From Rhizobium sp. Root1203 (lineage in GTDB: Bacteria > Pseudomonadota > Alphaproteobacteria > Rhizobiales > Rhizobiaceae), in NCBI RefSeq assembly GCF_001424945.1, contig NZ_LMCW01000004.1, forward strand, positions 62,001-126,000: 64,000 bases of DNA, in the 5' to 3' direction. Below are positions 20,725 to 42,424 of the stretch, one piece after another. The notes under the pieces were generated by a model. The model had not been told where the DNA came from, ran no database searches, and saw only the letters and a list, made by a program, of their open reading frames with translations. Made by a program: the position numbers and the translations under genes. How positions within the stretch are numbered: position 1 is the first letter of the stretch; each line of letters opens with the position of its first letter.

Positions 20725-20822
20725 AGCATTTCCGCTTTTCTTCGAATCGCGAAAACGCTCTATCTTTTTGTATTTACGCAATTCCGGACGCAAAACCGCC
20801 ACGCACTTTTGCTGGAATTTCC
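20723..20822 (+). repeat. Dispersed intergenic repeat, copy 2 (RIME-like)
   Basis: The second copy of the repeat seen at 8215-8320, differing at only about seven of ninety aligned positions. Here the 5' part forms a clearer hairpin (AGAGC near the start, GCTCT about 35 bases later), followed by CTATCTTTTTGT and the second hairpin with AATTCCGG and CTGGAATT arms. It lies inside the oxidase operon, between coxO and coxP, again beginning at the last two bases of a stop codon. Confidence 0.8.
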
Positions 20823-20836
20823 CTAGGAGCTGGACG

Positions 20837-25225: not shown

Positions 25226-25338
25226 CGAATCCTCCGTTCCGCAATATGGGCCGACCGTAGCATCTCGGCGGGCGTCGGGGAACAAAGCCGGGAAGCCAAC
25301 GTTTGAAAGCACGGACCCTCGAAACGGAAGGAAGTGCT

Positions 25339-25842
25339 ATGGCTAGTTTCAACGAGGCGCGGGAACACCCGGCACGCCAGCTCTGGGACCAGGTCAACGA
25401 TATCAATGCCGGAATGCTTGGGGTGGACGGCGTGGATATGCATATGCAGCCGATGGCGCCGCATGCCGACCCGAAGACCAACACGATCTGGTTCTACACG
25501 AAGTCCGATGCAGACATCGTCCGGGCGATCAGGCCCGGCACGCGCGCCCACTTCTGCGTCGTCGGCAAGGATCACGACTATCATGCGTGCCTCGCGGGCC
25601 AGATAGAGGCCCGCGCCGATCCGTCGAAGATCGAGGAATACTGGAACTCGGTCGTTGCCGCCTGGTACGAGGACGGCAAGAAGGACCCCAAGCTGACGAT
25701 GCTTGCCATGCATGTCGACGACGCGGAAATATGGGTTTCCACCGGCAGCAAGCTGAAATTCGGCTGGGAGATCGCCAAGGCCAATCTCGACGACGACAAG
25801 ATGCCCGACGTCGGCGTCAGGCAGCATCTGCATTTTGCCTGA
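25339..25842 (+). CDS. Pyridoxamine 5'-phosphate oxidase-fold protein (general stress protein 26-like)
   Basis: A 167-residue protein with the split-barrel flavin-binding fold of the PPOX family. Landmarks are ARQLWDQVNDINAGMLG, NTIWFYTKSDADIV, AHFCVVGKDHDYHACLAGQIEA and the C-terminal TGSKLKFGWEIAKANL. The family binds FMN or F420 and includes stress proteins with no known substrate; it is not the biosynthetic PdxH. GGAAGGAAG lies before ATG 25339. Its downstream flank carries a palindromic repeat. Confidence 0.85.
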   Translation: MASFNEAREHPARQLWDQVNDINAGMLGVDGVDMHMQPMAPHADPKTNTIWFYTKSDADIVRAIRPGTRAHFCVVGKDHDYHACLAGQIEARADPSKIEEYWNSVVAAWYEDGKKDPKLTMLAMHVDDAEIWVSTGSKLKFGWEIAKANLDDDKMPDVGVRQHLHFA

Positions 25843-25919
25843 GCTGATGGCAGTGTGAAGGACAAGGCCCGGGTGTTTGGGGCAAGCGGCTATGATGTCT
25901 GGGGGCGAAACATTCCATC

Positions 25920-26043
25920 CTCACCCCATCCCTGTGCTCGTCACAGGGATGGAGCGCATCCAAGTCATTGAATGCAAAAGACTCTTCTCACGGCGCGGAC
26001 GCGCCGTGGCTGTATCCCTGTGACGAGCACAGGAATGAGGGAG
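25920..26043. repeat. Palindromic repeat element, intergenic copy
   Basis: About 124 bases with long inverted ends: 25920-25950 and 26014-26043 both carry CCTGTGCTCGTCACAGG or its complement CTGTGACGAGCACAGG. A second perfect palindrome is nested inside (CACGGCGCG / CGCGCCGTG, 25989-26008). A copy with the same ends and a similar inner palindrome lies within the tilS coding region at 40010-40131. No transposase is encoded. Here it fills the gap between converging genes. Confidence 0.82.
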
Positions 26044-26113
26044 GGTGGAGATGAAGGCGCCGAACGAGGTGTCGGAAGTTTGGGCGGCCGAGGCGCACGC
26101 TGATGCCGCTCGT

Positions 26114-26950
26114 TTACTGCATGCCCTTGGCGACGTAGATCAGCGGCTTCTTCGGGAGGGTGCGCATCGATACGGTGATCGTGTTGGTCGGGGCGTAGGC
26201 GATATCGAAATCGGGACCGAACATCGACAGGAAGTTTTGCAACGGCCTCGGCTGGTGCATCGGCAGGATCAGCGACGATCTCAGGCGTTTGATGATGCGG
26301 CTCATGCTGTCGGCTCCCGTGGTCAGGCCGCCGTCGACCGGGACCATCACCACGTCCAGCCTGCCGATTTCGGTGTAGTGCGCCTCGGTCAGCTCGTAGT
26401 GCAGGTGGCCGAGATGCCCGATGCACAGGCCCGCGACCTCGAAGATGAAGATCGAGTTACCGTCTTTTTGCGGTGCGCCGTCGCCGCCGCGGATATCCGT
26501 CGTGACGTTGCGGATGTAGGTGTCGCCGACCATCATGTCGATCCTGGCCTTTTCGTCGGGCACATCGCTCCAGCCGTGCAGCACGTATCGGATCGCCGGA
26601 TCCGGTGCAGGCGTGTAGTGCGAGGAATGCGCCCGGTTCATCGTCACAACCGTCGGGGGACGCGGCGGCGTATACCAGCCGGAGAAATCCGTGGCGATCG
26701 AGACACCACCGGGTGTTTCGATGAAAAAGGTCGAATGGCCGACATAGGTCAGCGTGACGGTTTCCTCCGTGGCGCCCGCCGCGATCGATGGCGGCGGACC
26801 CGGGAAACTGGCGAAGGTTGCTTTTGGAATCGATTGGGCGACCGCCTGGCATTGGCTGACATTGCGGCGTTCCTCTTGCGCAGCCGCGGCTTCCGCCGCG
26901 ACAAGGACCAGCAGGCAGGCAACTGCGAAGACAAGAAAACGCGGCTTCAT
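26114..26950 (-). CDS. Exported metallo-beta-lactamase-fold hydrolase
   Basis: A 278-residue protein with a signal peptide (about residues 1-25, ending AAAAQ). The fold is the UlaG/YcbL-like branch of the MBL superfamily: TLTYVGHSTFFIETPGGVSIATDF begins the domain, RAHSSHYTPAPD takes the place of the HxHxDH loop in altered form (HSSHYT), HLGHLHYEL carries further His residues, and VMVPVDGG and LILPMHQ are the late metal-site strands. The changed first loop makes activity uncertain. GGAGGAAG lies before ATG 26950. It ends 70 bases from the palindromic repeat. Confidence 0.82.
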   Translation of the reverse strand: MKPRFLVFAVACLLVLVAAEAAAAQEERRNVSQCQAVAQSIPKATFASFPGPPPSIAAGATEETVTLTYVGHSTFFIETPGGVSIATDFSGWYTPPRPPTVVTMNRAHSSHYTPAPDPAIRYVLHGWSDVPDEKARIDMMVGDTYIRNVTTDIRGGDGAPQKDGNSIFIFEVAGLCIGHLGHLHYELTEAHYTEIGRLDVVMVPVDGGLTTGADSMSRIIKRLRSSLILPMHQPRPLQNFLSMFGPDFDIAYAPTNTITVSMRTLPKKPLIYVAKGMQ

Positions 26951-27067
26951 TGCCACTTCCTCCAGCGCTTTCACGATGCGGGGAGGATGCGGCAAGGGGT
27001 CGCATCGGTCCAGATCAAAAGCCGGCGCCGCTGCTCACTTTTGCGTCATGGCAGGCGGATGCCCAAG

Positions 27068-27892
27068 CTAGCGCCAGAACTCGGGAACGGTCTCCGCAAG
27101 CCGCGGGCCGAGGCGCAACGGCGCGATCTTTTCGGCGAGCCCCGTCGTATCGGAGATCTCGACGCCGACGCCGCAGATGGTGGCCGGGCCGGTCGCGGCC
27201 TCCATCCGGCCTTTCGGCATCTTGGAGATGAAGCGGTTCAGCGGCTCTTCCTTGTCCATGCCAAGGGACGAATCGTAATCGCCGCACATGCCGGCATCGG
27301 AGAGATAGGCGGTGCCGCCGTTGAGTATCTGGTGATCGGCGGTTGGCACATGCGTATGCGTTCCGACGACGAAACTCGCGCGTCCGTCGACGAAGTGGCC
27401 GAAGCACTGCTTCTCGCTGGTGGCTTCCGCATGGAAGTCGAAGATGATCGCGTCGGCCTGTTCCTTGAGCGGGCAGGCTGCGAGGATGGTTTCAGCCGAC
27501 TTGAAGGGGTCATCGAGTTCCGGGTGCATGAAGACGCGGCCCATAATGTTTGCGACGAGGACACGCGCACCGTTGCGGGCATAGAATAGGCCGGAACCGC
27601 GGCCGGGCGTCCCCTGCGGATAGTTGGCCGGACGCAGGAACTGGTCATGACGGCCGGCAAAGCCGACGGCTTCCTTCTGGTCCCAGACGTGATTGCCCGT
27701 CGTCACCACGTCGGCACCGGCATTGATCGTTTCGAGGAAGATATCCTCGGTTATGCCGAAGCCGCCGGCGGCGTTTTCGCCGTTGACGATCACGAAGTCG
27801 AGTTTCAGGTCCGATACCAGACCGGGGAGGCGATCCCAGACCGCCGTACGTCCGGTCTTGCCGACCATGTCACCCAGAAAAAGCAGTCTCAT
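27068..27892 (-). CDS. YmdB-type metallophosphoesterase (TIGR00282 family)
   Basis: A 274-residue cytosolic phosphoesterase. Metal and substrate residues are clear: FLGDMVGKTGR (residues 4-14), VIVNGENAAGG, TTGNHVWDQKE, FDFHAEATSEK and VVGTHTHVPTAD. Family knowledge: members are cyclic-nucleotide or 2',3'-cNMP phosphodiesterases; YmdB of Bacillus affects biofilm formation. It starts two bases after the 5-formyl-THF cyclo-ligase stop, so the two form an operon. ATG 27892 is chosen because upstream codons overlap the previous gene. Confidence 0.92.
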   Translation of the reverse strand: MRLLFLGDMVGKTGRTAVWDRLPGLVSDLKLDFVIVNGENAAGGFGITEDIFLETINAGADVVTTGNHVWDQKEAVGFAGRHDQFLRPANYPQGTPGRGSGLFYARNGARVLVANIMGRVFMHPELDDPFKSAETILAACPLKEQADAIIFDFHAEATSEKQCFGHFVDGRASFVVGTHTHVPTADHQILNGGTAYLSDAGMCGDYDSSLGMDKEEPLNRFISKMPKGRMEAATGPATICGVGVEISDTTGLAEKIAPLRLGPRLAETVPEFWR

Positions 27893-27894
27893 TG

Positions 27895-28482
27895 CTATCC
27901 AATCCAAGAGGCAAAAAAGCGAAGGCCGCTTTCTGTCAGGATGGCATCCAGGCTTACGTCGTGCGGCTCAGCGGGCACATGTGCCACTTCCTGGCAGTCG
28001 AATGCAATGCCGATCAGTTTCGGATGCATGCCTTTTTGCTTCAATCGGTCGATTGCACGGTCGTAATGACCCGCTCCGTAGCCGATACGGTGGCCGCGCC
28101 GATCAAATGCGGAGAGGGGGACGAGCAGGATCTCGGGATCGAGCACGGGTGCGTCCGGGCCCGGACCCGACGTGCCGAACCCGGTGCCGACCAGCGGTGC
28201 GCCGCGCACGAGCTCGCGGAAGACGATCGTCTGGCGATCGAGGATGGCGGGTACGCAAAGGCGCGCGCCGCGGGCCTGGAACCGTGCCATCAGCGGGCGG
28301 GTGTCCGCCTCGGAGCGGATCGGCAAAAAGCCGGAGACGATCGTGCCCGGGTCGAAGGCGACCGCTTCGCCGGCGTGCTCGGCCATCGCCAGGCTCATCT
28401 CGATACGCGTGTCCGCCGGGATGCCAGCGCGAAGCGCCAGCCGCTCGGCGCGCATTTCGGCCTTCAGTTCTTTTGGGGTCAT
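27895..28482 (-). CDS. 5-formyltetrahydrofolate cyclo-ligase
   Basis: A 195-residue enzyme that converts 5-formyl-THF to 5,10-methenyl-THF using ATP. The N-terminal Lys/Arg helix (KELKAEMRAERLALRAGI), GFLPIRSEADTRPLM, ILLVPLSAFDRRGHRIGYGAGHYDR (the diagnostic Gly-rich Mg-ATP loop) and the C-terminal EPHDVSLDAILTE are typical of the YgfA/MTHFS family. In many bacteria 6S RNA lies just upstream; only 91 bases separate it from the next gene here and no 6S fold was recognised. Confidence 0.93.
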   Translation of the reverse strand: MTPKELKAEMRAERLALRAGIPADTRIEMSLAMAEHAGEAVAFDPGTIVSGFLPIRSEADTRPLMARFQARGARLCVPAILDRQTIVFRELVRGAPLVGTGFGTSGPGPDAPVLDPEILLVPLSAFDRRGHRIGYGAGHYDRAIDRLKQKGMHPKLIGIAFDCQEVAHVPAEPHDVSLDAILTESGLRFFASWIG

Positions 28483-28573
28483 GCAATCCACCGCGCTGGT
28501 TTCCGCAGAACCATAAAGCTGTCGCCTGTCATTGCAACGCGAGAATGCGCCCTTTGACCGTCTGTCTTGGAGG

Positions 28574-29299
28574 TCAGATGACGATGCTGGTCGGTGTCCG
28601 CGAAGCGCCGACCTGTGCTTCGAGCGCCGCGCCATCGGCATCCGAGCCTGGGTTGCCGATCCTGGCACGCAGTTCGCGCATGGCTTTGTCCATGAGCTGG
28701 CGCACCTCCTGCAGGATCGACTTGAACTCCTCCATGGTCTTTCTGTCCTCGGCGGAGATTCCGGCAGATGCCTGCTTTCCATCCTCGACGACGCTCCGGT
28801 AGGCATTTCGTGCTGCCGTCGCACCGTCCGGTTCATCCGCCTCGGACGCCTCGACGCCAGCCTCGCCATCTTCGGATTCCGGTTCAGCGTTTGCGGCGGC
28901 AGTTGCTTCGGGCGCAGCGCCTGTTGCCGTATTCGCGGCGGCTGCCGTGGCCGATGAGGCGCTGGTCGCGCTGGCAGCGACAGCTGCGGCGAACTCGGTG
29001 GCCGCGGCGCTGATCTTGTGGGCGAGTTCGGCGGCAAGGCGGGCGACCACCTCAGGCGGGAAGCCGCCGCTTTTCAGCATCTCCAGCTGCGCCTTGGCTT
29101 CTTCCAGCTTCCGCGCTGCCCGTTCCTTGGCTGCATCGGCTGACGTGGTCATGTTCTGGCGCAAGGTCTCGAGGGCCTTTGCGGAATCCTGCAACATCTT
29201 CAGGCGCGTGCTGTTTGCGCCGTCCGCGAATGCGTTGAGGTTGCCGGCAGAATACGCGTTGCGCAGAATATCGAGCGTCGAAGTGGATCCGACTTGCAT
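28574..29299 (-). CDS. Hypothetical Ala/Glu-rich coiled-coil protein
   Basis: A 241-residue protein not recognised as a known family. It has no signal peptide or membrane helix. Residues about 30-85 are a likely coiled coil (LKMLQDSAKALETLRQ, then KERAARKLEEAKAQLEML), residues about 95-165 are a low-complexity Ala-rich and then acidic linker, and residues about 175-220 form a second helical region (DRKTMEEFKSILQEVRQLMDKAMREL). Composition matches its neighbours, so it is not obviously transferred. It lies between the folate gene and sqdC on the same strand, with short gaps. Confidence 0.7.
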   Translation of the reverse strand: MQVGSTSTLDILRNAYSAGNLNAFADGANSTRLKMLQDSAKALETLRQNMTTSADAAKERAARKLEEAKAQLEMLKSGGFPPEVVARLAAELAHKISAAATEFAAAVAASATSASSATAAAANTATGAAPEATAAANAEPESEDGEAGVEASEADEPDGATAARNAYRSVVEDGKQASAGISAEDRKTMEEFKSILQEVRQLMDKAMRELRARIGNPGSDADGAALEAQVGASRTPTSIVI

Positions 29300-29340
29300 A
29301 CTATCCCCCAGGATTACACCATCGGGGATGGGCTACAACC

Positions 29341-30249
29341 CTAGGCTTGCGCGGGCCTGTGCGGTAACCCGCCGGTGGCGAGAGCATGGATCGTCTCGTC
29401 GAATAGCGGCATGCCGCCGGGCGTCCAGCCGAGCATCCGGATTTTCGTCGTGTCCATCTGCGCCAGCGCGGATTTGTCGGCCGCGAGCGGCAACCTGTTG
29501 AGGCAATCGCGCTCCCAGCGGACGGGTTCCAGAATGTCCCATGTATCCACCGTCACATCGGAAACGTTGAAATTCTCGCCCGAGATGCGTGCGCTTTCGG
29601 CTTCCAGCATCAGCCGCACCGCCTGGCCGACGTCGCTTCCGTGAACCTCGGTTCCGGCGCGCGACGGCAAGGGGCGGCCCGCCAGGTAGTCGTCGATGAG
29701 CCCGTCCCATTTGTTGGGGTGCAGGCCGCCGTAGACGCCGGTCAGCCGCAGGCTTGCGGTCGCAAAGCCGGGGGCGGCGAGGTGCGCCAGGCTGCGCTCG
29801 GCATCGAGCTTGACCTGTCCGTATAGGGTAGTCGGTTTGGCCTGCATGCTCTCCGTCAGCATGGTTCCGAGCGGAGGATCGCCATAGACCGCGCGGCTGG
29901 AGATGAACACGCAACGGCGGGTGCCGGCGCGCTTGGCTGCGTCGAAGAGCCTGACGGTGCCGTCGAGGTTGAGGCGCTTGAATGTTTCCGGATCGTCACC
30001 CTCGCCGCCGCGATACTTTCCGGGCAGGTGGTGAAAGGCCGCGTGCACAAAGAAATAGGCGTCATCGAACGCCTCGATGTGATCGCGGGCCGGGTCGAGC
30101 GACAGGGGCGCGAACTCGACGGGGCGCGAAAAGGCACGGGGAAGCGGTGCGTGGCGGCCGCCGACGATGACGGAATATCCGGCCGCCAGCAGCTCCTCGA
30201 CGATGTATCGTCCGACAAGGCCCGTTCCGCCCGATACCAGTACCTTCAT
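29341..30249 (-). CDS. sqdC: SqdC-type NAD-dependent epimerase/reductase
   Basis: A 302-residue extended short-chain dehydrogenase. The nucleotide-binding motif GGTGLVGRYIVEELL is at residues 7-21, and the catalytic elements are SSRAVYG and YGQVK (Tyr-x-x-x-Lys). It overlaps the sqdD gene by four bases and ends the sqdB-sqdD-sqdC cluster, the same gene set known from Rhodobacter and Sinorhizobium. In Rhodobacter, loss of sqdC leads to a side product of sulfolipid synthesis, so it acts late in the pathway; the exact reaction is not settled. The symbol rests mainly on gene order. Confidence 0.82.
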   Translation of the reverse strand: MKVLVSGGTGLVGRYIVEELLAAGYSVIVGGRHAPLPRAFSRPVEFAPLSLDPARDHIEAFDDAYFFVHAAFHHLPGKYRGGEGDDPETFKRLNLDGTVRLFDAAKRAGTRRCVFISSRAVYGDPPLGTMLTESMQAKPTTLYGQVKLDAERSLAHLAAPGFATASLRLTGVYGGLHPNKWDGLIDDYLAGRPLPSRAGTEVHGSDVGQAVRLMLEAESARISGENFNVSDVTVDTWDILEPVRWERDCLNRLPLAADKSALAQMDTTKIRMLGWTPGGMPLFDETIHALATGGLPHRPAQA

Positions 30250-31064
30250 GCTGCCTCTTCCGGATTGGCCATCGCCGAAATGTCCGGCAGATCATCGCCG
30301 GCGTGGAACGCGTGCCAAAGGTCGATCAACGGCTGCAACATCGCGGCCTTGGGATGATCCGATTCCCATGGCTTTTCATATTGGTAGTGCAAGACCGAAA
30401 TGCTCTTCCAGTCCCAAAGAACCGGCATGGTGAACCATACGTACTGAAGCATGTTGAAATAGACAGGCAACCCGTGCCAATCGGGGAAATACGTCTGCAG
30501 AAACGTCTGGTCGGTCCGTTTCCAGAAGCTTTCGGGCTGATCGAGGCGCGCCAGCATGTGCCGGAACGTGTCAGCGGATGGACGGGCGACGAAAACGCCG
30601 GAGTTCATGCGGCGAAAGTCGCCGAGCGTCTCGTAGACATTGGGAGCTGCGGAAAATTCGGGGTACTGGAACAGCTTGTCGATGTTCCTCAGGACGATTG
30701 CGTCGGCGTCGATGAAGACGCATCGCTGGTATTCCGTCAGTTCCCAGAGCCTCAGCTTGCAGAAATTATCGAGCGGCGAATGGAAATCCGGCTTTCGTCC
30801 TTTGACGAAAGGGGCTGCCGAATGCAGCTTGCCGCGGGCATGGCGCTCGTTGAAGGCGTCGGACAGCGGCAGGTGCTCGACCTCGATCAGGCGACAGTTC
30901 AGCTGCTGCATCGGGTCGAGCACGGACCGGCCGACGCCGCCGGTGTGGAGCACGACGATATCGGCCGCGGTCCGGGTGACACGCAGCGAGCGCGCCAGCG
31001 CGGTTGCGCCCATGGCGTAGTCTGCGTTTGTGACGAGCGTGACGTAGGCGGACGGGGAGGTCAT
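30246..31064 (-). CDS. sqdD: SqdD-type glycosyltransferase (family GT8)
   Basis: A 272-residue cytosolic glycosyltransferase of the glycogenin-like GT8 family. Features are AYVTLVTNADYAMGATALARSL at the N-terminus, the metal-binding DxD motif in VFIDADAIVL, MNSGVFVARPS and the C-terminal HYQYEKPWE. In the sulfolipid pathway it is thought to transfer sulfoquinovose from UDP-sulfoquinovose to diacylglycerol. It sits between sqdB (106 bases upstream) and sqdC (four-base overlap), the order seen in other sulfolipid-making alphaproteobacteria. Confidence 0.86.
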   Translation of the reverse strand: MTSPSAYVTLVTNADYAMGATALARSLRVTRTAADIVVLHTGGVGRSVLDPMQQLNCRLIEVEHLPLSDAFNERHARGKLHSAAPFVKGRKPDFHSPLDNFCKLRLWELTEYQRCVFIDADAIVLRNIDKLFQYPEFSAAPNVYETLGDFRRMNSGVFVARPSADTFRHMLARLDQPESFWKRTDQTFLQTYFPDWHGLPVYFNMLQYVWFTMPVLWDWKSISVLHYQYEKPWESDHPKAAMLQPLIDLWHAFHAGDDLPDISAMANPEEAA

Positions 31065-31170
31065 GGGAATCGGGCGTCTCCACGGGTCTCTTTTCCCGAA
31101 CAGGGCGATGGTATAGGCCGCCGGACGAGGGGGGCTACATCCTCCAATCTGACACTCGTCGCTGCCATCG

Positions 31171-32391
31171 TCACGACACCGATTTCAGCCGCTTGCCTTC
31201 CAGATCGGGGTTGATCGTCGCGGCGATATCCTTGGTCCAGGCAGAGACGGCGGGAACGCGAGCGCGATCGACACGATAGGCGAACTTCCTCGCGATATCG
31301 ACGATCTCGCTCATCAAGCCGGCCTTGAGGGTGGTCGGGTCGAGGCCTAGGTCGCGGAATTTGTCGTTCCGGACGATCAGCTCGTTTTCGGGCGCCTCCT
31401 TGCGCGGGTTGGGCATCCACGCGATCGCAGAGCCTGTGATCTTCGCGACGATCTCGGCGAGATCGCGGACGCGGTGGGTTTCTGTCATCTGGTTGAAGAT
31501 CTCGACGCGCGCGCCGCGGGCAGGCGGATTCTTCAAGGCAAGCTCGATGCAGCGGACCGAATCCTGGATGTGGATGAAGGCGCGGGTCTGGCCGCCTGTG
31601 CCGTGGACGGTCAGGGGGTAGCCGATCGCAGCCTGGATGAGGAAGCGGTTCAGCACCGTGCCGTAGTCGCCGTCATAGTCGAAGCGATTGATCAGCTGCG
31701 CGTGCCGGCGCGTCTGCTCGGTGTGCGTTCCCCAGACGATGCCCTGGTGAAGATCGGTGATGCGCAGTGCATCGTTCTTGGCGTAGAAATGGAAGAGCAA
31801 CTGATCCAGGCACTTGGTCAAGTGGTAGATCGAACCGGGGTTGGAGGGGTAGAGAATCTCCTGACTGGCGGTTTGGCCGTCCGCCGTTTCGATGCCCACT
31901 CTCAGGTACCCTTCCGGGATCGCCGCGCCGACCGTCGAATATCCGTAGACGCCCATTGTGCCGAGATGGACGAGGTGGGCGTCGAGCTGCAGCTCGACCA
32001 GGGCGTTCAAGAGATTGTGCGTGGCATTGACGTTGTTGTTGACGGTGTAGTTCTTGTGCCGGTCGCTCTTCATCGAATAGGGGGCCGCGCGCTGTTCGGC
32101 GAAATGGACGATCGCGTCGGGCCTGTTGTCGGCGAGCCATTTTTTGAGCAGCTCGTAGTCCTTGGCGAGATCGATGAGGTTGAAATGGATGCGCCGGCCG
32201 GTTTCGGCGTGCCAGATGCGGGTTCGCTCCTGGATCGAGTCCATCGGGGTCAGCGATTGCACGCCGAGTTCGGTGTCGATCCAGCGTCGCGACAGGTTGT
32301 CGAGGATGTGAATGTCGTGGCCTGCGTCGGAGAGGTGCAATGATGTCGGCCAGCCGATAAAACCATCCCCGCCCATCACCGCAATCTTCAT
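31171..32391 (-). CDS. sqdB: UDP-sulfoquinovose synthase
   Basis: A 406-residue enzyme that makes UDP-sulfoquinovose from UDP-glucose and sulfite, the head-group donor of sulfoquinovosyl diacylglycerol. The NAD motif GGDGFIGWPTSLHL is at residues 7-20, HFAEQRAAPYSM is the substrate loop typical of SqdB, and the active site has LGTMGVYGYS (Thr) and YHLTKCLDQL (Tyr-x-x-x-Lys). ATG 32391 follows GGAGCAGGAG; an open frame further upstream is antisense to ybgC and is not used. First gene of sqdBDC. Sulfolipid partly replaces phospholipid when phosphate is scarce. Confidence 0.93.
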   Translation of the reverse strand: MKIAVMGGDGFIGWPTSLHLSDAGHDIHILDNLSRRWIDTELGVQSLTPMDSIQERTRIWHAETGRRIHFNLIDLAKDYELLKKWLADNRPDAIVHFAEQRAAPYSMKSDRHKNYTVNNNVNATHNLLNALVELQLDAHLVHLGTMGVYGYSTVGAAIPEGYLRVGIETADGQTASQEILYPSNPGSIYHLTKCLDQLLFHFYAKNDALRITDLHQGIVWGTHTEQTRRHAQLINRFDYDGDYGTVLNRFLIQAAIGYPLTVHGTGGQTRAFIHIQDSVRCIELALKNPPARGARVEIFNQMTETHRVRDLAEIVAKITGSAIAWMPNPRKEAPENELIVRNDKFRDLGLDPTTLKAGLMSEIVDIARKFAYRVDRARVPAVSAWTKDIAATINPDLEGKRLKSVS

Positions 32392-32508
32392 GGGATCATC
32401 TCCTGCTCCGTAGGTCGATGGGAAAATACTTAGGAACTGTGACGATTGTTCAATGCTTGCATGGCGGAAACTCTTGCGCCAAAGAGGGCTATGACTTTGG
32501 AGAGCATC

Positions 32509-32964
32509 ATGGCGGACAAAGGTTTTTCGATTTCGGGTGAGCTCACGGAAGCGGGCCATCGGCTTCTGCAGCGGGTCTACTACGAAGACACCGATTTCTC
32601 CGGTCTCGTCTATCATGCCCGCTACCTGCATTTTCTGGAGCGCGGCCGCACCGATTATCTCCGCTGCCTCGGCGTCGAGCAGCGCGAACTGATCACGGCC
32701 GACGAGGAGGGCCTGGTCTTCGTCGTCCACCGCATGGAGATCGACTTCAAGGCGCCGGCACGGATGGACGACCTCCTGACCGTGCTGACGCACACGGAAA
32801 AAGCCGGCGGTGCAAAGATGGTCCTCACCCAGGAAATACGTCGTGACGACACGCTCCTGATCGCCGCCAAGGTGATCATCGCCGTCATCAATGCCAGTGG
32901 ACGGCCGAGGCGCCTGCCGGAAACGTTGGCAGAGAAGTTTCTCGAAGGCGGCAAGCCGCTCTGA
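32509..32964 (+). CDS. ybgC: Tol-Pal-associated acyl-CoA thioesterase YbgC
   Basis: A 151-residue hot-dog-fold thioesterase. The active-site region VYYEDTDFSGLVYHARYLHFLERGRTDYL (split here as VYYEDTDFSGLVYHARYL plus the following helix) contains the catalytic Asp and the His. It usually heads the tol-pal cluster. Three in-frame ATGs compete (32461, 32491, 32509); 32509 gives the usual family length and has GGAGAG just upstream. It is separated from tolQ by 417 bases, so the tol genes may have their own promoter. Confidence 0.92.
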   Translation: MADKGFSISGELTEAGHRLLQRVYYEDTDFSGLVYHARYLHFLERGRTDYLRCLGVEQRELITADEEGLVFVVHRMEIDFKAPARMDDLLTVLTHTEKAGGAKMVLTQEIRRDDTLLIAAKVIIAVINASGRPRRLPETLAEKFLEGGKPL

Positions 32965-33381
32965 AGGCTGCGCCGGTGCGGATTGACTGAACCGACGCCA
33001 GAACGTCGCAAAGGGTGGCTGATTTCATCCTTGCAAAAACATGACTTTCATGTGAAGGAATTGCCGCGCTGCAAGATGAGCGCTGTTTTGGTCATAAACC
33101 TGTAGAGCTGACCAAGTAATCCAAGGATTATTCTTTCCGCAGATAGATTCGCTGACATTGTCCGATGCTAACGAACTGTTAACCATAATGGTGTCTTACT
33201 CGGATTGTCAGAGTTTGTGCGGTGCACGCCTTCCTTTGACCAAATTTGACGGCAAGGAAAGCGGATAAGAGCTTGGAAGCTTGACCAGGGCTTTGGGCGG
33301 CGGCCGCCAGACACTTCTTGCGAGATCACTTTGTGCCGCCCGGTCAAGTGCCGGGCGTTTGGATTCGGGGATTTTGGATCA
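32965..33381. other. 417-base intergenic region before tolQ
   Basis: No convincing gene is seen. The AT-richer middle (about 33000-33240) holds a CtrA-like site at 33168-33183. Nearer tolQ, GCCCGG and CCGGGC form a hairpin (33337-33357, seven-base loop) about 25 bases before the tolQ start; it may be a leader structure or weak terminator. The region probably contains the tolQ promoter. Confidence 0.6.
33168..33183. promoter_or_regulatory. CtrA-like binding site upstream of tolQ
   Basis: CTAACGAACTGTTAAC matches the CtrA consensus TTAA-N7-TTAAC at all but the first base and continues as CATAAT. It lies 199 bases before the tolQ start. A similar site precedes pal. CtrA is the alphaproteobacterial cell-cycle regulator, and the Tol-Pal system acts at cell division, so control is plausible; this is a sequence prediction. 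Confidence 0.55.
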
Positions 33382-34101
33382 ATGGAACAAGTAGGATTGG
33401 CAGCAGCAGCGACGGACGTGAGCCTGTGGTCGCTGTTCATGCAGGCAGGTCTCGTCGTCAAACTGGTCATGCTCGGGCTCATCGCAGCCTCCGTCTGGAC
33501 CTGGGCGATCGTCATCGACAAATATCTGGCCTTTGGCCGCGCACGGCGCCAGTTCGACAAGTTCGAGCAGGTGTTCTGGTCGGGCCAGTCGCTGGAGGAA
33601 CTCTACCGCTCGCTCTCCGAGCGCAACAATACGGGCCTCGCCTCGATCTTCGTCGCCGCCATGCGCGAATGGAAGAAGTCCTTCGAGCGCGGCGCACGGT
33701 CGCCGATCGGCCTGCAGATGCGTATCGACCGCGCCATGGACGTGACGCTCGCCCGTGAATCGGAATTCCTCTCCGCCCGCCTGGGCTCGCTGGCGACGAT
33801 CGGTTCTGCCGGTCCGTTCATCGGCCTCTTCGGTACGGTCGTCGGTATCATGACCTCGTTCCAGGCGATCGCCGGTTCGAAGTCCACTAACCTTGCGGTC
33901 GTCGCGCCCGGTATCGCCGAAGCGCTGCTTGCCACCGCGATCGGCCTTGTCGCCGCTATTCCGGCGGTTATCGCCTACAACAAATTCTCCGCCGACGCCG
34001 GCAAGCTCTCGGGTCGCATGGAAGGTTTCGCGGATGAATTCTCCGCCATCCTTTCGCGCCAGATCGATGAGAAGCTGCAGCCGCGCCAGGCTGCGCAGTA
34101 A
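33382..34101 (+). CDS. tolQ: Tol-Pal system proton channel subunit TolQ
   Basis: A 239-residue inner-membrane protein of the TolQ/ExbB/MotA family with three helices (about residues 19-42, 140-165, 175-200). The second and third helices carry the family sequence TIGSAGPFIGLFGTVVGIM and GIAEALLATAIGLVAAIPAV, with the Thr/Ala residues lining the proton path. With TolR it energises TolA. ATG 33382 begins directly before the first helix region; the open frame to 33331 is short and non-conserved. First gene of tolQRAB. Confidence 0.96.
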   Translation: MEQVGLAAAATDVSLWSLFMQAGLVVKLVMLGLIAASVWTWAIVIDKYLAFGRARRQFDKFEQVFWSGQSLEELYRSLSERNNTGLASIFVAAMREWKKSFERGARSPIGLQMRIDRAMDVTLARESEFLSARLGSLATIGSAGPFIGLFGTVVGIMTSFQAIAGSKSTNLAVVAPGIAEALLATAIGLVAAIPAVIAYNKFSADAGKLSGRMEGFADEFSAILSRQIDEKLQPRQAAQ

Positions 34102-34125
34102 ACGCACGGAAACGGAGTAAACGAT

Positions 34126-34584
34126 ATGGGTATGGGTGCTCCAGGCGGTGGCGGAGGCGGCGGTGGACGCCGTCGTCGTGGCGGCGGACGCAGAGGCGGC
34201 GTCATTTCCGAAATCAACGTGACGCCGCTCGTCGACGTCATGCTTGTTCTTCTCATCATCTTCATGGTCGCCGCACCGATGATGACCGTCGGCGTGCCGA
34301 TCGACCTGCCGGAAACGCAGGCCAAGGCGCTGAATTCCGAAACGCAGCCGATCACGATCTCCGTCAAGAACGACGGTACGGCATTCCTTCAGGAAACCCC
34401 GATCCCGGTCGAGGAAATCGCCGCCAAGCTCGAGGCGATCGCGACCACCGGCTACAATGAACGCATCTTCGTTCGCGGCGACGCGACGGCGCCCTATGGC
34501 GTGATCGCCGATGTCATGGCCCGCATCCAGGGTGCAGGCTTCAAGAACATCGGCCTCGTGACGCAGCAGAAGAAGGACCAATAG
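34126..34584 (+). CDS. tolR: Tol-Pal system protein TolR
   Basis: A 152-residue protein with a cytosolic Gly/Arg-rich N-terminus (residues 4-24), one membrane helix containing the essential Asp (INVTPLVDVMLVLLIIFMV) and a periplasmic ExbD/TolR domain (VGVPIDLPETQAKAL to the C-terminus). It forms the proton-conducting stator with TolQ. The Gly/Arg run (nine glycines and many arginines) is longer than in enteric TolR but common in rhizobia. Confidence 0.96.
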   Translation: MGMGAPGGGGGGGGRRRRGGGRRGGVISEINVTPLVDVMLVLLIIFMVAAPMMTVGVPIDLPETQAKALNSETQPITISVKNDGTAFLQETPIPVEEIAAKLEAIATTGYNERIFVRGDATAPYGVIADVMARIQGAGFKNIGLVTQQKKDQ

Positions 34585-34592
34585 CGAACGCT

Positions 34593-35729
34593 ATGAAGGC
34601 CAGTATCGTCACATCTGCTGCTCTGCACTGTGCACTGCTTGCCTGGGCGCTGATTTCGATCGGCTCCCCGGAGCAGTTCAAGGTCGAGGATTTCGAGGCG
34701 ATGCCCGTCGACCTCGTGCCCGTCGAAGAGATGACGCAGATGCAGCAGGGCGACAAGACGGCCAAGCCGAGCGAAAAGCCGGCGCCGAAGCCGACTGCCA
34801 AGCCGACCAATGTCGAAAACGCCGAGAACATGGGCGAGAACAAGGTCGACCTGAAGACGCCGCCGGTCCCCAACGCCAAGCCGAACAACAACGTCACGGC
34901 CGCTGCCCCGAAGGCCTCGGAGAAGCCGCTTCCCCAGAATGATCCCGTGCCCAACGAGGTGAAGGAGATCATGAAGGAGGAGACGGACGTCGAGCCGCAG
35001 CAGGTTGCGTCGATCACCCCGCCGAAGCCCGAGATCACACCGCCGACACCCACGCCTCCGAAGGCCGAGGAAAAGCCGCAGGAACAGGCAGAGCCGCCGA
35101 AGCCGGATGCCGAAGCGCTGCCGGACAAGGTGCCGACGCCCGTCGTCAAGCCGCAGGTGAAGCCGCCGGAGCAGAAGCCGGCCGAAAAACCGCCTGAGAA
35201 GAAGACCGAAGACAAGGCCCAGACGGACGAAAAGCCGACCGACAAGAAAAAGGCCGACAAGAAGCAGGAAAAGGCGAAGGCCTCCTCCTCGAAGCAGAGC
35301 GACTTCAACTCGGACGATATCGCGGCCCTGCTCAACAAGCAGGACCCGTCGAACGGCGGCGCCAAGAGCTCGACCGAAGTTGCTTCGTTCGGCGCCAAAA
35401 AGGCCACCGGCGGTTCCAAGCTCTCGATGAGCGAGATGGATGCCCTGCGCAGCGCGATCGCCGGCAACTGGTCCGTTATTCCGGGAATGGAAGGTGCTGC
35501 CGACGTTCGCATCAAGGTCCACATGAAGCTCGATCCGGATGGCAACATCATCGGCTCGCCCGAGGTCGAAGCGATCGGTGGGACCAACGAGGCAACGCGC
35601 ATGGCCCTGGCGAGCGGTGCCAAGCGCGCCGTCATGAAATCGTCGCCGTTCACCAATCTTCCCAAAGACAAATATGACGCCTGGGGCGAAGTCATCGTCA
35701 ATTTCGATCCCAGCGATCTAGCCCTTTAA
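34593..35729 (+). CDS. tolA: Tol-Pal system protein TolA
   Basis: A 378-residue envelope-spanning protein. It has an N-terminal membrane anchor (about residues 1-24), a long extended Pro/Lys/Glu-rich region (about 50-250, many PKP and EKP repeats) that crosses the periplasm, and a C-terminal TonB-like domain (about 285-378: [41 protein letters not shown]). It links the TolQR motor to Pal and TolB. The helical KAEEAA spacer of E. coli is replaced by a proline-rich one, as in other alphaproteobacteria. Confidence 0.94.
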
Positions 35730-35730
35730 A

Positions 35731-37062
35731 ATGCTGAAAGGCTTGTCCTCTATGACCAAGTGTTCTCTCATCCGCGCCTTGATGGTCGCCGTCGGCATGA
35801 TAACCACAGCTGTTATCGCCACGCCCGCGAACGCGCTCGTCGAAATCAACATCAACAAGGGCAACGTCGAGCCTCTGCCGATCGCGATCACCGACTTCCT
35901 GCAGGGCGACATGGGCGCGCAGGTGTCGCAGGTGATTGCCGCCGATCTTCAGCGCTCCGGCCTTTTCAAGCCAATCGCCAAGAACGCCTTCATCGAGAAG
36001 ATTTCCAATCCCGACGCCGCTCCGCGCTTCGAGGACTGGAAGGTCATCAATGCGCAGGCGCTGGTCACCGGCCGCGTGACGCAGGAAAGCGATGGCCGCC
36101 TTCGGGCCGAATTCCGCCTCTGGGATACCTTTGCCGGCACGCAAATGACCGGCCAGCAGTTCTACACGCAGCCTGAAAACTGGCGCCGCGTCGCCCACAT
36201 CATCGCCGATGCGATCTACAAGCAGATTACCGGTGAAGAAGGCTACTTCGACACCCGCGTCGTCTTCGTCTCGGAATCCGGCACCAAGCAGGATCGCAAG
36301 CGCCAGCTCGCCATCATGGACCAGGACGGCTTCAACGTCCGCATGCTGACCAACGGCAGCGACCTCGTGCTCACGCCGCGCTTCTCGCCGAACCGGCAGG
36401 AAGTCACCTACATGTCGTTTGCCAACCAGCAGCCGCGGGTCTACCTGCTGCAGCTGGAAACCGGACAGCGCGAAGTGGTCGGCAACTTCCCCGGCATGAC
36501 CTTCTCGCCGCGCTTCTCGCCTGACGGTCAGAAGGTCGTCATGAGCCTTCAGCAGGAAGGCAATGCCAACATCTACACGATGGACCTGCGTTCGCGCACG
36601 ACGACCCGCCTGACCTCGACGGCGGCGATCGACACCTCGCCGTCCTATTCGCCCGACGGCGGACGGATCGTCTTCGAAAGCGACCGCGGCGGTCACCAGC
36701 AGATCTACGTGATGAATGCCGACGGGTCCGGCCAGACGCGCATCTCCTTCGGCGACGGCAACTATTCGACGCCGGTCTGGTCGCCGCGGGGCGATCTCAT
36801 CGCCTTCACCAAGCAGTCGGGCGGCAAGTTCTCGATCGGCGTGATGAAGCCGGACGGCTCGGGCGAGCGTATCCTGACAACGGGCTTCCACAACGAGGGT
36901 CCGACCTGGGCACCGAACGGCCGTGTCATCATGTTCTTCCGCCAGGCGGCGGGAGCAGGTGGTCCGCAGCTCTACTCGATCGACCTCACCGGCTACAACG
37001 AGCAGCTGATCAAGACCCCGAACTTCGCATCGGACCCGGCCTGGTCGCCGCTCCTGGAGTAG
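35731..37062 (+). CDS. tolB: Tol-Pal system protein TolB
   Basis: A 443-residue periplasmic protein with a signal peptide (about residues 8-35, ending TPANA), an N-terminal alpha/beta domain (about 40-170) and a six-bladed beta-propeller made of repeats such as [46 protein letters not shown] and [14 protein letters not shown]. It binds Pal and TolA. It begins one base after the tolA stop; ATG 35752 is an alternative start that trims seven residues. Confidence 0.96.
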
Positions 37063-37127
37063 GAAAGACTGTGGACACGCCTTTTTGTCGCCTCAAAAAT
37101 CCTCGATTGGGGCAGCAGAGGGACAAA

Positions 37128-37143
37128 TCAACCATCCGTTAAC
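37128..37143. promoter_or_regulatory. CtrA-like binding site upstream of pal
   Basis: TCAACCATCCGTTAAC matches TTAA-N7-TTAAC at all but the second base and continues as CATAAT, so that GTTAACCATAAT is shared exactly with the tolQ upstream site. It lies 76 bases before the pal start, in the 156-base gap after tolB, and suggests that pal has its own cell-cycle-controlled promoter. Confidence 0.55.
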
Positions 37144-37218
37144 CATAATTCTTGAACGCCGATTAACCGAGTACGGTTACAGTCCGGCAACCTTAATCAA
37201 GTCGCAAGGAGACCGGCC

Positions 37219-37749
37219 ATGAGCCGAATTCACACCCCGGCAATGAGCCGCATGCAGAATTTCGCCCGCAACCCCGTCATGATCGCGCTCGTTGCCGGTC
37301 TTGCCCTGGCCGGTTGCGCCAACAAGAAGAACATGGCCAACAGCGCCGGCGATCTCGGCCTCGGCGCCGGCGCCGCAACGCCTGGCTCGGCGCAGGACTT
37401 CACGGTCAACGTCGGCGACCGCATCTTCTTCGACACCGACTCGACGTCGATCCGCGCAGACGCTTCCCAGACGCTCGACCGTCAGGCACAGTGGCTCGCT
37501 CGTTATCCGAAGTACGCGATCACGGTCGAAGGCCATGCCGACGAACGCGGCACCCGCGAATACAACCTCGCCCTCGGCGCGCGCCGTGCCGCTGCCACGA
37601 AGGACTACCTCGCGTCGCGCGGCGTTCCGGCCCAGCGCATGAAGACGATCTCCTACGGCAAGGAACGTCCGGTCGCCGTCTGCGACGATATTTCCTGCTG
37701 GTCGCAGAACCGCCGTGCCGTCACCGTTCTCGGCGGCGCCGGCATGTAA
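37219..37749 (+). CDS. pal: Peptidoglycan-associated lipoprotein Pal
   Basis: A 176-residue outer-membrane lipoprotein. The lipobox LALAGCA places the lipidated Cys at residue 33. After a short linker the OmpA-like domain (about 65-170) contains RIFFDTDSTSIRADA and the diaminopimelate-binding stretch VEGHADERGTREYNLALGARRA. It anchors the outer membrane to peptidoglycan and binds TolB and TolA during constriction. A strong terminator follows. Confidence 0.97.
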   Translation: MSRIHTPAMSRMQNFARNPVMIALVAGLALAGCANKKNMANSAGDLGLGAGAATPGSAQDFTVNVGDRIFFDTDSTSIRADASQTLDRQAQWLARYPKYAITVEGHADERGTREYNLALGARRAAATKDYLASRGVPAQRMKTISYGKERPVAVCDDISCWSQNRRAVTVLGGAGM

Positions 37750-37774
37750 TTGCCGGAAAGACATTACCTTTTGG

Positions 37775-37809
37775 AAAGGCGGCTCCTTCGCGGGCCGCCT
37801 TTTCTTTTT
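37775..37809 (+). terminator. Rho-independent terminator of pal
   Basis: AAAGGCGGC and GCCGCCTTT form a nine-base-pair stem with a ten-base loop, followed by TCTTTTT. It ends the tol-pal transcript before cpoB. Confidence 0.88.
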
Positions 37810-37911
37810 GACCACACTTTGGCCAGACTCCGTTGCTTTTTGAAAGCAATTGGAAAAATCTCCTGTTCGTGCCATCGAGGTGCGAAGAATCACTGGGACA
37901 GGACGAACCAT

Positions 37912-38913
37912 ATGAAGAAACTTGTCGTTGCGGGCATGCTGTGCCTCGCGGCATTGGCCGGGACAGAGCAGTCGGCGAATGCGACGTCGCTATTCGGCTG
38001 GCACATCGGCGATAAGGCCGGCGAGCAGCGGAACGCGCCCGTCGTCAACGTGCAGGCGGCCGGGAGTGCGGAAGTGCGCGTCCAGCAGCTCGAAGAGCAA
38101 CTGCGCCAGCTGAACGGCCGGATCGAGGAGATGAGCTTCCAGCTCCTGCAGATGCAGGAAACGATCCGCAAGGCGCAGGAAGACAACGAATTCCGCTTCC
38201 AGGAGCTGGAGAAGGGCGGAGGCAGCAGCGCCGGTGCCAGCAGCAAGCCGATGAAAAAGAGTGAGGCCGATGTGCCCGCTTCCGGACAGATGGCCAGAGG
38301 CGGCGACGATGTCGCCCGCACGATAGAGGCGACACGGGGAGCCGAAACGGCTCCCTCCACCGACGTTCCTGCAAACGAAGGCCTGGGGCAGCCGCCCAAG
38401 CAGCTTGGTTCGATCGACTTCGACCAGAGCGGCAACCCGGTCGGCGGGTCGGTCAATCAGGGCGCGGAGGTCGGTTCCGGCCCGTTGCCCGATGTCGACG
38501 GGAGCCGATCCTCGCAGACAGCATCGCTTGGCAGCGAAGCGGACCAGTACAAGGCCGCATACGGCCACGTGCTCTCGGGCGACTATTCGACGGCCGAACA
38601 GGAATTTACGCAGTACATTGCCCAGTACCCCGGCAGTGCACGGGCGGCCGATGCAAACTTCTGGCTTGGCGAAGCGCTCTATTCGCAGGGCAAGTACAAC
38701 GATGCCGCCAAGACGTTCCTCGACGCGCACAAGAGGTACGGCAGCTCGGAAAAGGCGCCTGAAATGCTGTTGAAGCTCGGCATGTCGCTTGCTGCGCTCG
38801 ACAACACCGAAACGGCCTGCGCCACGCTGAGGGAAGTGTCGAAGCGCTATCCCAAGGCATCCCGCGCCGTCATAACCAAGGTTGCGAGCGAACAGAAGCG
38901 TCTCGCCTGCTAA
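37912..38913 (+). CDS. cpoB: Cell division coordinator CpoB (YbgF)
   Basis: A 333-residue periplasmic protein. It has a signal peptide (about residues 1-22), a coiled-coil trimerisation region (about 50-100: VQQLEEQLRQLNGRIEEM), a variable linker rich in Gly/Ser/Asp (about 105-205), and C-terminal TPR repeats (about 210-330: YKAAYGHVLSGDYSTAEQEF, NFWLGEALYSQGKYNDAAKTF). CpoB couples peptidoglycan synthesis to Tol-mediated constriction. ATG 37912 is chosen because it begins the signal peptide after the pal terminator. tilS follows after 11 bases. Confidence 0.92.
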   Translation: MKKLVVAGMLCLAALAGTEQSANATSLFGWHIGDKAGEQRNAPVVNVQAAGSAEVRVQQLEEQLRQLNGRIEEMSFQLLQMQETIRKAQEDNEFRFQELEKGGGSSAGASSKPMKKSEADVPASGQMARGGDDVARTIEATRGAETAPSTDVPANEGLGQPPKQLGSIDFDQSGNPVGGSVNQGAEVGSGPLPDVDGSRSSQTASLGSEADQYKAAYGHVLSGDYSTAEQEFTQYIAQYPGSARAADANFWLGEALYSQGKYNDAAKTFLDAHKRYGSSEKAPEMLLKLGMSLAALDNTETACATLREVSKRYPKASRAVITKVASEQKRLAC

Positions 38914-38924
38914 GGCCTGCCGGG

Positions 38925-40394
38925 TTGCGTCCCGACGGCACCATTTCTCCCGAAACGGCCGCGCGCCGCTTTCTCGATTCGCTGGTCCAGCCCTCGCGCA
39001 TTCTCGTCGCGATTTCCGGCGGCAGCGATTCAACCGGCCTGCTTCTGGCGCTGTCGGATGCGCTGAAGGCCACTCCCCATTCAAAAATCGCCCTCTGCGC
39101 CGCGACCGTCGATCACGCGTTGCGGGCCGAATCGGCGGATGAAGCGCGCCAGGTCGCCGCTCTCTGCCTGAGCCTCGGCATTCCGCATGCCACCAAGGTC
39201 TGGCACGGGTCGAAGCCCAAGGCCGGCATCATGGCAGCGGCGCGCGATGCCCGCTACCAACTGCTCGCCGAGGCCGCGGACGAGCTTGCCGCCGACATCG
39301 TCGTGACCGCCCATACGCTCGACGATCAACGCGAGACACTTGTCATGCGCGGTGCCCGATCGAGCAGGAATATGACGGGCATCGCAGACGCGGTGCTGTT
39401 CGACCGGCGCATCTGGGTGGCTCGGCCTCTGCTTCTTTCGTTGCGAGCCGATATCCGTGCCGGGCTCGAACACCGCGGCATCGCCTGGCAGGACGATCCG
39501 AGCAACGAGGATCCGAAATACGAACGGGTACGCACGCGCCAGGAGCTTGACGGGCAGGGGATCTCCGTGGAGGAACTCGGTACGATGGCGTCAGCCCGGC
39601 AAGAGCTTGCCGCCGGTGCAGCGCGATGGCTCGATGCGCATGTCAGTGTGCATGGCGCGATGCTCGGGCACATCTCGCCTGCCGGGCTTGCTGTCGAGCA
39701 GGCGCTTTTCGGGCATGGGCTATCGCGGCTTGCGGCGGTGTTCGGCGGGCAGCCTTTTGCGCTCGGGCGGGAGCCGATGAGAGGTATTCTCGATTTCGTC
39801 GCTGCGGGAAGACCGGGACGGGTGACGGCAGGGCGGGTGGTGTTCGATCTGCGGCGGGACGGGCTGTACCTGGCGCGGGAGACACGAGGCATCCTGCCGC
39901 TCGCCGTTGCTGCGGGCGGGCGCGCTGTCTGGGATGGCCGATATACGGTGGAGAATCGCTCGGATGTGGATGTGACGGTGTCTGCTCCAGGAGAGGCGGT
40001 TTCCGCAAACTCCCTCGTTCCTGTGCTCGTCACAGGAATTCGGCAACGGCGCGTCAGCGCCGTCAGAGACCCTTTTGCGCCCAAAGGCTTGGGCGCGCTG
40101 GATTCTTGTGACGAGCACAGGAATGAGGGAGGAGCGAGAGGCGACGGAGGCGAAAGAAGTTCCAACCTCCCGAAAAGCGCCCTCCGGCGCGCGCTTGCAG
40201 CCCAGCCGCACATCTGGGCATCGGCAATATCCACCGATCTGCCGGATCAAATCCGCATCGAGCCGTATTTCGCGTTGTTCGACCGTTTTTTGACACGATT
40301 CGACTTCATCTTCGCGAACAGCCTTGCGGCTGCATTTGGAACCCGCCCCTATCCAAAACCGCCTTTAGGTCTTATTGACGGAAAAACCATCTAA
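38925..40394 (+). CDS. tilS: tRNA(Ile)-lysidine synthase TilS, with in-frame repeat insertion
   Basis: A 489-residue enzyme that modifies C34 of the CAU-anticodon isoleucine tRNA to lysidine. The ATP pyrophosphatase loop SGGSDS is at residues 31-36; DHALRAES, HTLDDQRET and DPSNEDPKYERVRTR follow. Residues about 362-402 (PVLVTGIRQRRVSAV to SCDEHRNEG) are translated from a palindromic repeat and are foreign to the family; the normal C-terminus resumes with LPKSALRRALAAQPHIW and FDRFLTRFDFIFA. The frame stays open throughout. The start is a TTG at 38925, eleven bases after cpoB; no ATG or GTG fits the conserved N-terminus. The gene should be essential, so the product is probably functional. Confidence 0.9.
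   Translation: MRPDGTISPETAARRFLDSLVQPSRILVAISGGSDSTGLLLALSDALKATPHSKIALCAATVDHALRAESADEARQVAALCLSLGIPHATKVWHGSKPKAGIMAAARDARYQLLAEAADELAADIVVTAHTLDDQRETLVMRGARSSRNMTGIADAVLFDRRIWVARPLLLSLRADIRAGLEHRGIAWQDDPSNEDPKYERVRTRQELDGQGISVEELGTMASARQELAAGAARWLDAHVSVHGAMLGHISPAGLAVEQALFGHGLSRLAAVFGGQPFALGREPMRGILDFVAAGRPGRVTAGRVVFDLRRDGLYLARETRGILPLAVAAGGRAVWDGRYTVENRSDVDVTVSAPGEAVSANSLVPVLVTGIRQRRVSAVRDPFAPKGLGALDSCDEHRNEGGARGDGGERSSNLPKSALRRALAAQPHIWASAISTDLPDQIRIEPYFALFDRFLTRFDFIFANSLAAAFGTRPYPKPPLGLIDGKTI
40010..40131. repeat. Palindromic repeat element inside tilS
   Basis: The ends 40010-40039 and 40102-40131 are inverted repeats that match at about 28 of 30 positions (TTCCTGTGCTCGTCACAGGA against the complement of its partner). 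Inside are two further palindromes, ACGGCGC / GCGCCGT and GCGCCCAA / TTGGGCGC. It is related to the intergenic element at 25920-26043. It lies within the tilS reading frame and adds about 41 codons without a stop. Confidence 0.85.
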
Positions 40395-40407
40395 CGGACC
40401 GGTTTGC

Positions 40408-40439
40408 CTTGGCAATAGCCCTACGCACTCCTATGTTAG
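40408..40439 (+). promoter_or_regulatory. RpoH (heat-shock sigma factor)-like promoter of ftsH
   Basis: CTTG (40408) and CCTATGTTAG (40430-40439) are separated by 18 bases, an exact match to the alphaproteobacterial heat-shock promoter pattern CTTG-N17/18-CYTATNTNNG. It lies 53 bases before the ftsH start. ftsH is a heat-shock gene in many bacteria, which supports the assignment; it is a prediction. Confidence 0.6.
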
Positions 40440-40492
40440 AAGCCAAATAAGACGGTCGCCATGAGGCGGTCGTTCCAGTGCTGGGGAGTTCG

Positions 40493-42424
<1,932 letters not shown>

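Follow-up and report, generated by a model that had tools for sequence, protein, structure and literature searches.

A palindromic DNA repeat lies in frame within the coding sequence of tilS in many species of Rhizobium. We consider it likely that this is a RIME-type repeat which behaves in tilS like the Rickettsia palindromic elements (RPE), as a tolerated passenger that has been exchanged between species and is predicted to be translated. The repeat was detected in the window, a 64-kb stretch of DNA from a 6.7 Mb genome of the genus Rhizobium. In 80 of 80 named loci, genomes of this genus are identical to named records along 600 nt of tilS, and nearly all of these records bear the name Rhizobium or 'Rhizobiales bacterium'. 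A first-pass annotation had placed it at positions 40010-40131, and the inverted arms give exactly these coordinates. The ORF at 38925-40394 (plus strand) matches TIGR02432 at 146.6 bits (cut-off 93.6), which identifies it as TilS. This ORF has no stop codon where it crosses the repeat and is open throughout, as expected from the earlier claim of an unbroken frame. The repeat itself does measure about 41 codons, as proposed, but the exact borders of the insert could not be set. The annotation had also considered that the enzyme might be made from a second tilS elsewhere; the gene is single in the source genome (one match at E <= 1e-60). The features of the window are as follows.

38925-40394, plus strand: tilS, tRNA(Ile) lysidine synthetase, 489 aa, TTG start as listed (ORF list, TIGR02432)
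40010-40131, plus strand: palindromic repeat, 122 bp, in frame in tilS, approximately residues 362-403, orientation F of the family profile
40010-40044, plus strand: left inverted arm of the tilS repeat, 35 nt, with a short inner palindrome
40046-40063, plus strand: inner hairpin 1 of the tilS repeat (predicted fold)
40077-40096, plus strand: inner hairpin 2 of the tilS repeat (predicted fold)
40097-40131, plus strand: right inverted arm of the tilS repeat, 35 nt
25924-26051, minus strand: second copy of the tilS repeat, in the spacer between two convergent ORFs, 14 kb from tilS
40478-42424, plus strand: gene directly downstream of tilS, AAA+ metalloprotease (ORF list), which we take from its sequence to be ftsH

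The two 35-nt arms are 89% complementary, and the predicted folding energy of the 122-nt repeat is -95.7 kcal/mol. Rfam gave no match at gathering score in positions 25000-41000. The window also holds another repeat of about 105 nt, at 8214-8317 and 20722-20826, whose copies are 91-92% identical.

The repeat family was then defined in the source genome and beyond. A 251-bp query found 17 distinct family places in the source genome, counted from match rows and including tilS, which bears out the view of a mobile-looking element and not a chance palindrome. A family profile was built from 13 other copies of this genome (118-144 bp), and 30 full copies outside tilS were 117-174 bp long among those measured. 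Terminal inverted repeats, a MITE-like feature, are present in the family. In a plasmid search the repeat was found in 192 of 72,556 records, at least 1123 places in all. The hosts of these plasmids are all named Rhizobium, Sinorhizobium, Neorhizobium, Agrobacterium or Ensifer, with 112 of the 192 from Rhizobium and 74 from Sinorhizobium. In the annotated records among the 60 rows listed, the best place never coincides with an annotated gene (55 of 55), and the same holds for 50 of 50 records of an overlapping spread list; the PLSDB gene tables used here are incomplete. In a family-level genome set, the repeat was matched at E <= 1e-15 in 14 of 247 genomes, belonging to 5 of 109 genera. These results suggest that the repeat is mobile and normally non-coding.

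Alleles with and without the repeat were compared at three plasmid loci. The alternative alleles differ in the entire spacer, and no clean empty site was found there. Alignment of tilS with relatives lacking the insert, which the annotation had proposed as a way to define the borders and any target duplication, gave neither, because these relatives differ across the whole linker. Since no clean empty site and no target duplication was found, insertion by transposition is a step that we infer. In the katG spacer of CP007644.1 (L362), about 14 nt on the left side of the repeat form the inverted complement of its right flank. This stretch is missing from two alternative alleles, and the arrangement may bear on how the repeat inserts or grows.

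Other genes were surveyed for copies within conserved proteins. In the source genome, 41 ORFs (at least 100 aa) overlap the 16 other places; a Pfam domain was found in 5 of them and in none does it reach the repeat. When 45 genus genomes were searched with two repeat peptides, 26 matched at E <= 1e-7. From the listed matches, 34 places with long open frames (20 + 14) were taken, and Pfam was run on the 22 ORFs (13 + 9) that span the repeat and extend more than 40 aa past it at each end. Domains occur in 4 of these 22, namely di-haem oxidoreductase once and CcmH three times, and always start at least 20 residues beyond the repeat. The searches made found no second gene with an in-frame repeat. 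In this survey, which in the genus genomes covered listed rows, mostly free of internal stops, with frames of about 250 aa or more in the reading frames of the two peptides, and which judged ORFs by their Pfam domains, tilS appears to be the only gene with the repeat inside a conserved protein. Within the searched set it is an exception because no surveyed domain elsewhere reaches the repeat. In G023, G150 and G015 (L277, L378, L383) an open-frame copy lies about 20 residues before the CcmH domain. This copy probably lies in the spacer ahead of the gene, an intergenic position of the repeat that these genomes share.

We next examined tilS throughout the genus. The gene is present in 148 of 148 genomes, and the 147 with an unbroken frame were compared. 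G007 (L140) was dropped since a frameshift within the N-terminal domain interrupts its tilS, yet its palindromic insert is intact and in frame. This frameshift may be either real or an assembly error. The profile search detected the repeat in 66 of the 147 frames, and none is broken by it. Best E values of the carriers range from 3.6e-40 to 0.02, with three weaker than 1e-5 (0.0014 to 0.02). The site is constant in all 66: the repeat lies in the linker that follows the WDGR region and precedes the LPK motif. The remaining 81 are without the repeat at the threshold, including 7 with probable remnant motifs as judged by eye. Orthologues carry the same repeat or have it absent or too eroded, and the non-repetitive segment that the annotation had named as evidence against an insertion was not seen. 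The linker measures 39-126 aa with the repeat (mean 75.8) and 30-59 aa without it (mean 34.2).

On the tilS tree, built like our other trees from short ('quick') searches, all carriers belong to one of three groups: leguminosarum/etli (53 of 63 genomes), the group of the window (6 of 13) and mongolense/sullae (7 of 8). None of the other 63 genomes is a carrier. Presence and absence of the repeat require 13 changes on this tree. Four related genera carry the repeat outside tilS, and the ten tilS genes compared from them all lack it. Named carriers include R. pisi DSM 30132, in orientation F, and R. johnstonii 3841, in orientation R. Under each of the names R. esperanzae, R. aethiopicum and R. 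phaseoli, two genomes differ in their tilS allele. In four species of the clade of the window (L077, L083, L084, L061), the linker surrounding the insert is itself longer by tens of residues; part of this extension is common to them, and sister species that lack the insert do not have it. The insert arms of G023, G090, G087, G084, G086, G074 and G119 contain an additional hairpin-like segment of about 18-21 nt, in the left arm only, the right arm only or both.

The effect of the insert on the protein was predicted with AlphaFold. The models of the window TilS and of R. johnstonii 3841 TilS, which has the opposite orientation, reached mean pLDDT values of 82.6 and 82.8 from alignments of 37 and 36 sequences. 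Most of the insert has pLDDT < 50 in both models, and well-folded parts flank it; the insert is thus predicted to be disordered in both orientations. Among solved structures, the closest are 3a2k, a TilS with tRNA, and 1ni5, from E. coli, at TM-scores of 0.52-0.57. Excerpts of one paper describe TilS as essential in E. coli and B. subtilis and perhaps not in every species, and state that the second C-terminal domain of type I TilS touches the tRNA acceptor stem and is required for activity (PMC12514573). That the C-terminal domain resumes after the insert, as claimed earlier, agrees with genus-wide conservation and the predicted fold, but Pfam on the window TilS gave no C-terminal hit that would mark the last domain as the type I TilS domain. 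A long floppy linker ahead of the last TilS domain is plausible. In our reading, the repeat would have entered this disordered linker in an ancestor within Rhizobium, and it would be neutral for enzyme function.

Full-length copies were compared for length and frame. Those in tilS are divisible by three in 41 of 41 cases, and those outside tilS in 33 of 63; 29 of these 33 would also be open in the F frame. Of the 63 copies, 14 come from the source genome, 6 of them with a length divisible by three; the other 49 are best matches to one query copy in seven genomes, so the set is not a random sample. By these counts a reading frame could pass through many members of the family, and those found in tilS are all compatible. 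The insert would have survived because its length is divisible by three and its frame is open.

Both orientations occur in tilS. Among the 66 carriers, 38 inserts are in orientation F (26 long, 12 partial) and 28 in orientation R (26 long, 2 partial). F inserts translate like VLVTGI...DSCDEHRNEG and most R inserts like FLCLSQES...IPVTSTGMRE, and two R inserts, those of G034 and G150, are in the phase of F. The phase of F and R alleles differs by one base on each side. In the largest clade, with 53 carriers, the number of orientation changes was counted on trees from different parts of the gene: it is 19 for the N-terminal part, 12 for the C-terminal part, 6 for the 90 codons directly ahead of the insert and 3 for the immediate flanks. 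Windows of 50 codons upstream required 15-21 changes, while the window touching the insert required 5 (shuffled mean 17.9, minimum 14). Downstream windows required 13 (shuffled minimum 11 and 12). By pairwise distance, the association of orientation with the flank has z of 18.4 at codons -20..0 and 9.7 at -30..-10, and none was found further left to about 210 codons. On the right flank z is 2.4, a value reached by 28 of 1000 shuffles. In this clade orientation is scattered at random over the tilS tree, yet it is linked to some 25 codons of the left flank. Our reading is that two old alleles have passed from species to species through short-tract recombination.

Repeated independent insertions into a preferred tilS site, in either orientation, could also give such a distribution without exchange of two old alleles, and this seems unlikely to us. 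It would explain the one-base phase difference and the 13 changes on the tilS tree, and many of these genomes are rich in copies of the family. However, insertion alone would leave the left flank unaltered, and orientation is tied to it. In 7 of 7 genomes the tilS insert is also nearest to tilS inserts of other species and not to the non-tilS copies examined, with a small margin (0.02) in G000 and G068. These findings favour the exchange of alleles between species. The two diverged alleles, of opposite orientation and different phase, would have been exchanged in tracts of at most a few hundred bp. Conversion of the tilS copy by copies in the same genome was unsupported, as identity of tilS to non-tilS copies was 0.825 within the same genome and 0.820 to another genome in the 7 genomes with full tilS and non-tilS copies.

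One pair of genomes in the group of the window shows the insert inverted. Between G150 and G116 there are 2 differences of 116 after inversion, and the flanks are homologous. Identity is 98% in the insert after inversion, 75% in the left 100 nt and 62% in the right. The pair is best explained by a flip in place between the inverted arms, as judged from these alignments; because the insert is more alike than the flanks, replacement by a similar copy is also possible. A weaker case may be G034, in which core identity is 0.75 inverted and 0.60-0.70 direct. The inverted arms would occasionally let the core flip in place and give a new peptide with the gene unbroken. Beyond what the first-pass annotation had proposed, these comparisons suggest that the insert is common to many species in both orientations, that its alleles have been exchanged and that one was inverted in place.

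The divergence of the insert was compared with that of the gene. The dN/dS of the insert was 0.69 in F (23 inserts) and 1.00 in R (18), against 0.14-0.37 in other gene parts. G034 and G150 were excluded from this set, and these values and the distances, pooled over non-independent pairs with recombination, are descriptive. The pS of the insert was 0.157 in F and 0.133 in R, against 0.32-0.65 in other gene parts. Change at third positions was slightly raised in F inserts (0.152 vs 0.11), with no excess in R. Insert divergence reaches a plateau at about 0.12-0.13 while fourfold divergence of the gene climbs to 0.54. Taken together, dN/dS, pS and the plateau point to hardly any conservation at the peptide level, and to DNA that is either younger than the gene around it or under more constraint. 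Against a passenger stands the pS of the insert, which is far below that of the gene and is not what plain neutral drift would produce over the time in which the gene diverged. A value this low would follow from recent spread through recombination, or from members of the family pool entering the site repeatedly.

Constraint on the nucleic acid would be another source of low divergence. The arms are equally complementary in tilS and non-tilS copies (43 vs 77; P = 0.77 for the duplex and 0.16 for energy per base), and since tilS arms pair as well as those elsewhere, selection may also act on nucleic-acid structure. The tilS linker might then be a long-lived coding slot with cassette alleles and a flipping core, in which the repeat is retained because an RNA hairpin serves tilS or the next gene; we regard this as quite unlikely. 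That the insert is kept for a nucleic-acid function alone, with a hairpin in tilS mRNA setting processing, stability or ribosome pausing, is improbable in our judgement. The peptide would then be irrelevant but the frame would have to stay open, and the hairpin would lie upstream of the next gene. The very stable predicted fold and the arm complementarity fit such a function. Synonymous sites of the insert also change 2.4-4.5 times less than those of other gene parts, and a loop variant is common to both arms in G115, G066, G074 and G119 as judged by eye. However, the 81 tilS genes without the repeat at the threshold include close relatives of carriers, several carriers have an extra 18-21 nt in an arm or halves deleted, and recent spread also predicts low divergence. 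A better match between arms within one insert than between inserts fails on average (0.857 vs 0.853, 43 inserts). Selection of the peptide itself, for example for tRNA binding or TilS regulation, is highly improbable: the insert has persisted long in an enzyme reported as essential in E. coli and B. subtilis (PMC12514573, in excerpt), but its dN/dS is 0.7-1, the two orientations fill this site with unrelated peptides, disorder is predicted and many species are without it. The insert would instead have been a tolerated passenger since its entry, with the enzyme fold kept, and it would erode through in-frame internal deletions.

The repeat was compared with known systems. Excerpts of two papers describe RPE as repeats of 105-146 bp fused in frame in protein genes and report that guanylate kinase with an RPE is still active with a changed affinity (PMC2229807, PMC10969869). 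In these excerpts coding repeats are known chiefly from Rickettsia, with Wolbachia also cited, and one of them considers that a similar process perhaps occurs in other prokaryotes (PMC10969869). Like RPE, the repeat described here is palindromic (122 bp), dispersed and open in frame, and lies inside a conserved protein gene. The RPE likeness drawn in the annotation held up for a dispersed palindromic repeat in frame between folded parts of a conserved enzyme. Unlike RPE, it occurs in another bacterial order and has one recurrent host gene, with the other copies examined outside recognised domains. It also differs in having both orientations, an apparent in-place inversion and probable allele exchange between species. 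The tilS repeat would thus work like RPE, a likeness of behaviour. The RPE work is reportedly that of Ogata et al. 2000/2002, and protein-coding palindromic repeats in Wolbachia, an alphaproteobacterium, were reportedly described by Ogata et al. 2005. The present case resembles the latter as a putative protein-coding palindromic repeat in an alphaproteobacterium, judging by the title of that work. Wolbachia is obligate intracellular, unlike Rhizobium, and Rickettsia is also intracellular.

Rhizobial intergenic repeats offer a second comparison. Osteras et al. 1995 are said to have described RIME as Rhizobium-specific intergenic mosaic elements, first in a two-component region in the pckA-chvI neighbourhood. 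In our searches a copy lies at most 400 bp from the pckA match in 1 of 10 genomes (L354:1109-1210, related genus), with 1500 bp covered on each side. RIME, Sm-repeats and AB and C palindromes are listed in an excerpt as rhizobial intergenic sequences of unknown function (PMC2573895), and RIME are also mentioned in an excerpt of another paper (PMC2245857). Like RIME, our family occurs between genes in Rhizobium and Sinorhizobium, judging by their description, and is probably RIME-type. Unlike RIME, which are described as intergenic, the tilS copy lies within a coding frame. Inverted repeats in coding genes are also described, in excerpt, for Nematomorpha mitochondria (PMC6649704), but those sit in animal mitochondrial genes and are not a dispersed bacterial repeat family. 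In the open-access literature we found no paper on a palindromic repeat in Rhizobium tilS.

Because the named strains R. johnstonii 3841 and R. pisi DSM 30132 are carriers, direct testing is possible. A putative protein-coding palindromic repeat, like the cases in intracellular Rickettsia, persists in large-genome Rhizobium across dozens of species. The 147 orthologues form a natural experiment on non-coding DNA becoming protein, with respect to tolerance, frame, orientation and erosion. They may also inform on spread by recombination and on the flipping of a coding segment via an inverted repeat.
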